From NCBI GenBank assembly GCA_030739585.1, contig JASLYX010000001.1, forward strand, positions 186,001 through 250,000: a DNA stretch of 64,000 nt, in the 5' to 3' direction. The first letter of the stretch is position 1. Every line of letters starts with the position of its first letter. Shown piece after piece: positions 8,078-9,590 of this stretch. The stretch is from Candidatus Bathyarchaeota archaeon (GTDB lineage Archaea; Thermoproteota; Bathyarchaeia; TCS64). The notes under the pieces are model-generated. The model was not told where the DNA came from and searched no databases. It worked only from the letters and a program-made list of their open reading frames with translations. A program made the translations under genes and the position numbers.

Positions 8078-8385
8078 AGTCTAATCTCTTGAATTTTACT
8101 AATTAAAACTGTGCACATGATATTTCTAGTTTCACTGAGACATACCACATGCGATGTCTTCGATAGGGAATGCATTAATGTCACTAAACAGAACAAGAGT
8201 GACCTGGATAGAGTTATCCACACTCGCGTGGGTGTCGGCTACGAGGACTGACCATCTGCGTGGATGGTTTTCAAAGCGAGCCTCGTCGATGACAAGGAAG
8301 CGTTTTTATTCATGCTCAGGGAACCCTGAAATAGTCTATTTTTTCTCCAATAGCCTTCAGGTTGGATAGATATTCATATAAATGT
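8078..8385. other. Spacer with a possible leftward coding remnant
   Basis: No intact gene is visible. On the minus strand, 8132-8290 reads as an open frame with protein-like composition (FENHPRRWSVLVADTHASVD and further, ending at TGA 8132-8134), but it has no start codon and matches nothing I recognise. TATA-like sequences (attcatataaat, about 8371-8382) lie just before the queT leader. Confidence 0.3.
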
Positions 8386-8466
8386 GCTGGGATTCTATCG
8401 CAGGTGGCGGGTGAGTGGGGCCTCCCACCCGTTCCGCCATATAAATCCCGGAGAAGGGAGGCAAAA
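8386..8466 (+). ncRNA. Structured 5' leader of queT-queC (riboswitch candidate)
   Basis: Three nested helices can be drawn. P1 pairs GGGATT (8389-8394) with AATCCC (8444-8449). P2 pairs TGGCGG (8405-8410) with CCGCCA (8434-8439). P3 pairs GTGGG (8415-8419) with CCCAC (8424-8428) around a GCCT loop. The ribosome site GGGAGG (8456-8461) follows P1 by 6 nt and ends 5 nt before the queT ATG. The location ahead of a queuosine-precursor transporter and preQ0 synthase suggests sensing of preQ0 or preQ1. It does not match the known preQ1-I, II or III layouts that I can recall. If transcription starts 25 bp after the TATA at 8371-8382, P1 would be partly lost, so the start site matters. Confidence 0.5.
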
Positions 8467-8949
8467 ATGGAGATAAACACGAAGGACGTAACTCTGGTGG
8501 CCATCTTCGCGGCTCTTTATGCCGTGCTAGGAGTGGTCTTCGCACCTATCGGTTTCCTAGCACTACAGTTCAGGATCGCGGGGATTATCAGGCCGGCCGT
8601 AGCTAAGAAGCCTATCCTCATCGTTGGTTACACTATCGGGGTGTTCATCACGAATCTTTTCAGCCCTTTCACGGGCTTCCTCGAACTTGTCTTCATGCCG
8701 TTGATGAGCCTCGTGGCTGGGCTCGCAGGATACTATGCTGCTAAATTTTTCGGAAAGAGCTACATGGTTGCTGGGGCCGTCATCGCAGTTATCATACCTA
8801 TCAGCGTTAGCTGGATGCTAAACCAGCTCTTCGAGCTCCCGATTGTTGCAACGCTGCCAGGGCTCATTGTGAGCGAGCAGATAGTGAACGGCCTCGGGTC
8901 AATCCTCTTCATGGCAGTAGCTTCTAGATACAGGTGGTACGAAGGATAA
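8467..8949 (+). CDS. queT: QueT-like queuosine-precursor transporter
   Basis: Integral membrane protein of 160 residues with about five hydrophobic segments. The order of an N-terminal helix (TLVAIFAALYAVLGVVFAP), the LQFRIAGIIRPAVA stretch and the TNLFSPFTGFLELVFMPLMS segment fits QueT, the substrate-binding (S) component of an energy-coupling-factor transporter for queuosine precursors. The ATG at 8467 is preceded by GGGAGG; the longer open frame from 8362 runs through the structured leader and is not used. It overlaps queC by 16 nt. No ECF ATPase or T component is nearby, so it would share a common module encoded elsewhere. The substrate is probably preQ0 or a related deazapurine. Confidence 0.8.
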   Translation: MEINTKDVTLVAIFAALYAVLGVVFAPIGFLALQFRIAGIIRPAVAKKPILIVGYTIGVFITNLFSPFTGFLELVFMPLMSLVAGLAGYYAAKFFGKSYMVAGAVIAVIIPISVSWMLNQLFELPIVATLPGLIVSEQIVNGLGSILFMAVASRYRWYEG

Positions 8950-9590
8950 AGTGCGTCGTAGTCTTCAGCGGAGGCCCCGACTCGGCTAGCGCGGCATACT
9001 GGGCGAAGGATAAGGGATTTGATGTTCACCTTATCACTTTCGACTACGGTCAGATCGCTAAGATCGAGATCGAACACGCGAGGAGGATAGCCCAGGAAAT
9101 GGGCGTGACCCATAAGGTGGTAGACCTCTCCGCCCTCGAAAGGGTTTACTTAGGCATTACATCTCTGGTGGACACTGGCATCCAGATGACCCAGGAGTTC
9201 AGCGCTCCCATAATCGTCCCATTCAGGAATGGCGTGTTTCTCGCCGTGACCGTTGCGTACGCGGCTTCCGTCGGGGTGGACACGATCCTGTACGGGGCTC
9301 ATGGTTCCGATGAGGAAAACTACCCGGACTGCCGGAGAGAGTTTTACAAGGCCTTTGAGGCTACTGCGAGACTGGGCACCGAGACGCAAATCACAATTGA
9401 TGCCCCCTTCAGCAACATAACCAAGGCGGAAATGCTCAAGCGGGGATTAGGGCTAGGGGTCCCTCTCCATCTCACCTGGTCTTGCTACAGGAACGGACCC
9501 ATCCACTGCGGGACCTGCGAGTCGTGCAACAATAGAAGGAAGGCCTTCAGGGAGGCTGGGATCCAAGATCCCACGGAATACAAGACCTGA
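8934..9590 (+). CDS. queC: 7-cyano-7-deazaguanine (preQ0) synthase QueC
   Basis: Converts 7-carboxy-7-deazaguanine to preQ0 with ATP and ammonia, supplying the base for archaeosine in tRNA. The PP-loop SGGPDS lies near the N-terminus. The C-terminal zinc site is visible as CYRNGPIHCGTCESC, four cysteines. At 218 residues it is normal length. The start is a GTG at 8934 inside the last codons of queT, so translation is probably coupled. Pairing a transporter with a biosynthetic enzyme suggests the cell both makes and salvages the deazapurine. Confidence 0.93.
   Translation: MVRRIKCVVVFSGGPDSASAAYWAKDKGFDVHLITFDYGQIAKIEIEHARRIAQEMGVTHKVVDLSALERVYLGITSLVDTGIQMTQEFSAPIIVPFRNGVFLAVTVAYAASVGVDTILYGAHGSDEENYPDCRREFYKAFEATARLGTETQITIDAPFSNITKAEMLKRGLGLGVPLHLTWSCYRNGPIHCGTCESCNNRRKAFREAGIQDPTEYKT

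Follow-up and report, generated by a model that had tools for sequence, protein, structure and literature searches.

Three preQ1 riboswitch classes are covered by a 2024 review in which no word containing "archae" occurs (PMC11625349), and a 2021 paper counts a single natural archaeal riboswitch, that for fluoride, as established by experiment (PMC8241225). Among the preQ1 classes, preQ1-II lies upstream of queT in Streptococcaceae/Lactococcus and forms a pseudoknot that includes the Shine-Dalgarno (SD) sequence; preQ1-I (types I to III) is a compact H-type pseudoknot, with type III occluding the SD sequence by Watson-Crick pairing; and preQ1-III is also found upstream of queT (PMC11625349). 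The fluoride (crcB) riboswitch of Thermococcus kodakarensis presumably acts on translation (PMC8241225).

Here, we describe a leader RNA from an archaeal assembly of 1.69 Mb, of which a stretch of 64,000 nucleotides (the window) was analyzed. Like preQ1-II, the leader places an SD-including pseudoknot before queT, in the same pathway, but preQ1-II is confined to Bacillota, has a P1-P4 architecture, and senses preQ1, whereas the present motif is archaeal, has another consensus, and lacks an Rfam match. The extra hairpin that precedes the SD strand in preQ1-II is likewise absent: the CCCGG of the linker mostly lies 8 nt past P1 (linker length usually ∼8 nt), with no conserved hairpin between them. 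The proposed pseudoknot helix P3 recalls the SD occlusion of preQ1-I type III, but preQ1-I is bacterial and differs in conserved bases and size, while preQ1-III is known from Ruminococcaceae and metagenomes and has an expression platform distant from the pocket; the motif has no Rfam match to either class. The fluoride riboswitch, although natural to archaea, is a different RNA with another ligand and other genes, and it occurs in bacteria too.

Searches with Rfam 15 at gathering and relaxed thresholds yielded only a chance match of the window leader to an unrelated lncRNA (E values up to 10) and no match for 17 divergent homologous loci (E values up to 1), in agreement with the remark in an earlier note on this DNA that the fold is unlike the known preQ1 classes. 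No description of the motif was found in the openly licensed literature. Because the element fails the sequence-structure membership of each preQ1 class, we assign it to a new class of this functional type. We consider it probable that the queT-queC mRNA carries in its first ∼60 nt a translational OFF riboswitch of a non-Rfam class that senses a 7-deazaguanine, most likely preQ0. With somewhat less confidence, we regard the class as archaea specific and possibly very old (TACK and Asgard), the first for the archaeosine pathway, and among very few natural archaeal riboswitches. If so, archaea, including Asgard archaea, would have evolved metabolite-sensing RNAs of their own, the archaeosine pathway would gain a regulator, and a natural preQ0 sensor would be at hand.

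A conserved RNA element precedes queT and queC

The strongly conserved motif spans positions 8406 to 8462 and reads GGCGGGUGAGUGG-n-CCUCCCACCCGUUCCGCC-n-AUAAAYCCCGG-n-GGGAGG. Helices stopping shortly 5′ of GGGAGG (8456 to 8461), ahead of queT-queC, had been reported in the earlier note, and our analysis bears out an inverted-repeat structure there, a QueT gene behind it, and the overlap of this gene with a QueC gene. The features are as follows.

8406-8410, plus strand: P1 5′ strand, GGCGG (covaries)
8411-8413, plus strand: invariant GU(G/A) 3′ of the P1 strand (GTG in 142 and GTA in 15 of 157 copies)
8415-8419, plus strand: P2 5′ strand, GUGGG
8420-8426, plus strand: P3 5′ strand, GCCUCCC, an anti-SD sequence in the hairpin loop
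8424-8428, plus strand: P2 3′ strand, CCCAC, overlapping the P3 5′ strand
8429-8433, plus strand: conserved CCGUU separating P2 from P1 (CCGTT in 143 of 157 copies)
8434-8438, plus strand: P1 3′ strand, CCGCC (pairing and double changes as for the 5′ strand)
8441-8451, plus strand: conserved linker AUAAAUCCCGG (AWAAAYCCCGG in nearly all copies)
8456-8462, plus strand: P3 3′ strand, GGGAGGC (complementary and covarying), holding the SD sequence GGAGG (8457-8461)
8467-8949, plus strand: queT, S component of an ECF-type transporter (Pfam QueT PF06177, E = 2e-17)
8934-9590, plus strand: queC, 7-cyano-7-deazaguanine synthase (PF06508, E = 1.7e-62; TIGR00364 above the cut-off), its start overlapping the end of queT (8934 versus 8949)

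Alignment of the window leader with queT-orthologue leaders from 26 other loci showed no variation in 20 columns and gave the consensus GGCGGGUGAGUGGGnCCUCCCACCCGUUCCGCCnUAUAAAnCCCGGAGUAGGGAGG. When the window leader was folded alone, z was −1.31 and 20 of 200 shuffles were equally good; folding energy therefore tells little. As judged from the sequences compared, the significance of the structure comes from conservation and covariation and not from the folding energy of a single sequence. The near-invariant core segments yield no covariation signal.

Covariation supports a pseudoknot that sequesters the Shine-Dalgarno sequence

P1 comprises 5 bp, the first of which occurs as GC, AU, CG, or UA and the fifth as GC (149 copies) or CG (8 copies). 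In alignment A2, pairing holds in 98.7% of the P1 cells; double changes number 12, versus 1.9 after shuffling, and sliding the partner abolishes the signal. P2 joins GUGG(G) (8415 to 8419) to (C)CCAC (8424 to 8428) and takes the alternative forms CCG/CGG (L150) and CGG/CCG (L008); its covariation is modest (partner score, 13.10 versus 12.54 ± 0.13 for shuffled partners). The hairpin loop GCCUCCC (8420 to 8426) is fully complementary to GGGAGGC (8456 to 8462), and this pairing constitutes the pseudoknot P3.

P3 had been overlooked in the earlier note, which proposed three nested helices. The inner two are P1 and P2 and are conserved. The outer helix, formed by CUGGGAUU (8387 to 8394) and AAUCCCGG (8444 to 8451), is absent from leaders of the same genus (L002 and L003) and, with its 5′ strand ahead of the predicted transcript start, is probably untranscribed. 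The overall architecture appears to be that of a pseudoknot rather than of three nested helices.

The mean true-partner score of P3 was 17.36, compared with 15.65 ± 0.17 in 200 shuffles (maximum, 16.04), statistics that carry no phylogeny correction, as partner shuffles leave relatedness in. Partner shuffling was used to handle the additional 16S rRNA constraint on GGAGG, which raises the apparent conservation of P3. That P3 has changed in lineages far apart speaks against shared ancestry as the cause: the covarying pairs include ACAUCUC/GAGAUGU, UUUCCGAC/GUCGGAAA, ACCUCG/CGAGGU, UCUCC/GGAGA, and CUCGCA/UGCGAG, and UUUCC/GGAAA and CUCGC/GCGAG are likewise kept with a remodelled SD sequence. 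P3 is retained even in lineages that no longer have GGAGG (L142, with GGAAA, and L210, with GAGAUGU).

Three other pairings were rejected. Pairing of the invariant CCCG with CGGG of the P1 5′ strand shows no covariation, since CCCCGG or UCCCGG persists in eight copies that have GGCGC. An extra helix between CCG(UU) and the CGG of CCCGG is invariant or broken (CCCCAAAA in L225 to L227) and thus unsupported, and a local CCC...GGG hairpin over the SD sequence, present in the minimum free energy fold, is lost when the SD sequence changes.

Positions 8424 to 8426 of the window belong both to P2 and to the full P3. A 5-bp P3 (GCCUC/GAGGC) is compatible with a 4-bp P2, whereas the 7-bp P3 is not. The predicted energies, with pseudoknot loop costs left out, are approximately −9.6 kcal/mol for the P2 gain versus approximately −13 kcal/mol for the P3 duplex. 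The shared nucleotides and comparable energies therefore suit a bistable switch whose balance a ligand could tip. P3 alone could mask the SD sequence, and the energies are moderate, two points in favor of ligand-free masking that is either constitutive or temperature dependent (an RNA thermometer). We find this hardly credible, as such a device would need neither the invariant GUG, CCGUU, and AUAAAYCCCGG segments nor the restriction to one pathway. Three features generally looked for in a riboswitch are seen here: a covarying structured RNA in the 5′ untranslated region, regulated genes that share one metabolite, and an SD-overlapping platform with alternative structures.

The motif is predicted to form the 5′ end of the mRNA

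The promoter was located with a profile over 146 leaders.

8366-8383, plus strand: BRE/TATA promoter region around GATATTCATATAAAT

Relative to P1, the leaders are A rich at −40 to −35 and show a TATA peak at −34 to −28, with 92% A+T at −30; the window sequence ATATAAAT sits a few nucleotides 3′ of the TATA position in the profile. The spacing from the TATA box to the start site in archaea is usually about 25 nt. The transcript is therefore predicted to begin ∼3 to 6 nt 5′ of P1, at about 8400 to 8405, and the motif would thus be the 5′ end of the mRNA. A transcript start after 8400 was taken in the earlier note to count against a riboswitch; the start probably does fall there, yet the idea stands, as no part of the conserved core lies 5′ of 8406.

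The near-palindrome GGCGGGTG...CACCCGTTCCGCC adjoins the TATA box, and an inverted repeat just past the start site could be a DNA operator bound by a dimeric repressor. We give this explanation very little credence. An operator cannot explain why the loop and the SD sequence covary in P3 where the SD sequence itself has changed, the loop length ranges from 14 to 27 nt across copies, and the conserved linker AUAAAYCCCGG lies outside the palindrome.

Downstream genes and distribution

Among 158 copies of the motif, a number that includes a few loci fetched twice, the gene directly 3′ is queT in 140, queE in 10, queC in 2, and an unnamed membrane protein gene in 5, and 1 copy abuts a contig end. 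Every downstream gene with a name acts in the synthesis or uptake of preQ0. The gene that comes after queE in thaumarchaeal bins is gat-queC, which encodes a fusion of QueC with an amidotransferase.

Archaeal leaders can be controlled by proteins, and the conserved unpaired bases could touch one; TGT or an enzyme of the que pathway, for instance, might stabilize P3 and so repress the pathway to which it belongs. However, no candidate protein is tied to the motif, the RNA core stays constant while the downstream gene varies (queT, queE, queC, or the new membrane family), and the association with a small-molecule pathway is complete, so that a protein-binding site seems improbable. A riboswitch governing access to GGGAGG, as proposed in the earlier note, is favored by the gene association, the covarying SD-sequestering pseudoknot, and the lack of an Rfam match.

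The unnamed membrane protein (232 to 239 amino acids) follows the motif in L067 (1567 to 2262), L190, L208 (1569 to 2288), L160, and L167. The L067 protein has no match in Pfam or NCBIfam and is 41% identical to that of L208; in both loci, a small Cys-rich, zinc-ribbon-like protein comes next. As a marker, the motif singles out this family as a likely preQ0-pathway transporter, and we regard it as a candidate new family of such transporters.

With a covariance model that used P1 only, the motif was detected in 185 of the 257 Bathyarchaeia genomes (the class of the window) and in 80 of 398 genomes of a phylum sample. The genome sample, limited in size, covered TACK and Asgard archaea. A pattern scan of GTDB genomes gave at least 120 matches. 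Nearly all of the matches listed were archaeal (Bathyarchaeota, Methanomethylicia, Nitrososphaeria/Thaumarchaeota, Odinarchaeia, Njordarchaeum, and another Asgard bin), and among these, relatives with the same leader were mostly named Candidatus Bathyarchaeota. Sixteen of 228 genomes matched in the phylum of the Odinarchaeia bin, where most weak matches precede QueT-like proteins and are clearly diverged forms of the same motif; about three look like chance. The bacterial pattern matches (Synechococcus, Lysobacter, Rhodopila, Spirulina, Chloroflexi, and a Proteobacterium) found no confirmation with the covariance model and were set aside as chance. The pattern scan of viral contigs gave no match.

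preQ0 is the likeliest ligand

The genome containing the window encodes an archaeosine-type TGT (TIGR00432; 551 bits, cut-off of 350), as do its relatives. Among the 61 genomes comprising this genome and its relatives, QueF was found in none and QueD in 4, with the window's genome having neither; the search for QueE returned only generic radical-SAM similarity in the relatives and nothing in the window's genome. Given the archaeosine-type TGT and the absence of QueF, archaeosine made from preQ0 is therefore the expected end product, and any preQ1 would not be QueF made. By this gene content, preQ1 is unlikely to be the natural ligand. Because the TGT is of the archaeosine type, whose substrate base is preQ0, QueF is absent, and QueD and QueE are mostly absent, preQ0 appears to be the likeliest ligand; it is also the only base common to all motif contexts (queE, queC, and queT).

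The same architecture could instead serve another ligand, namely, 7-carboxy-7-deazaguanine (CDG), preQ1, queuine or the archaeosine base, or guanine. Functionally related bacterial riboswitches do sense preQ1 (PMC11625349), and genomes with queT-queC but without QueD and QueE may import CDG. We nevertheless think a different ligand unlikely: without QueF, preQ1 is not made by the known route, and the motif is retained in many genomes that have queT but no true QueC, where CDG would be unusable.

The conservation, the P1/P2/P3 pairing, the promoter position, and the gene association were computed; the identity of the ligand, the ligand-binding state, and the sign of regulation we infer. Without ligand, the P1/P2 hairpin would leave the SD sequence accessible. 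preQ0 would bind to the conserved GUG, CCGUU, and AUAAAYCCCGG segments and thereby favor P3, in which the GCCUCCC loop pairs with GGGAGGC, masking the SD sequence and blocking initiation. Plentiful preQ0 would in this way shut off its own uptake and synthesis.

The queT-queC pair occurs in genomes without QueD and apparently without QueE, and a true QueC mostly adjoins queT in the sampled relatives. When QueT is at least 45% identical to that of the window, queC comes next in 24 of 24 cases, while in 82 of the 94 other cases it does not. This pattern suggests that the window-type QueT clade may import CDG, which QueC would convert to preQ0, and that QueC-less genomes may import preQ0 itself.

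A thaumarchaeal bin, G586, carries three copies of the motif (L073, L164, and G586:C11:168939-168999), at least two of them before queE, which may reflect gene duplication or a mixed bin. In L026 (1365 to 1430), an intact motif precedes a broken queT with two stops, and the second motif of the same genome precedes an intact QueT-like gene (L064). The variant copies in L225, L226, and L227 (about 1501 to 1563), in which CCCCAAAA replaces CCCCGG and P3 is kept, have possibly changed their ligand specificity.
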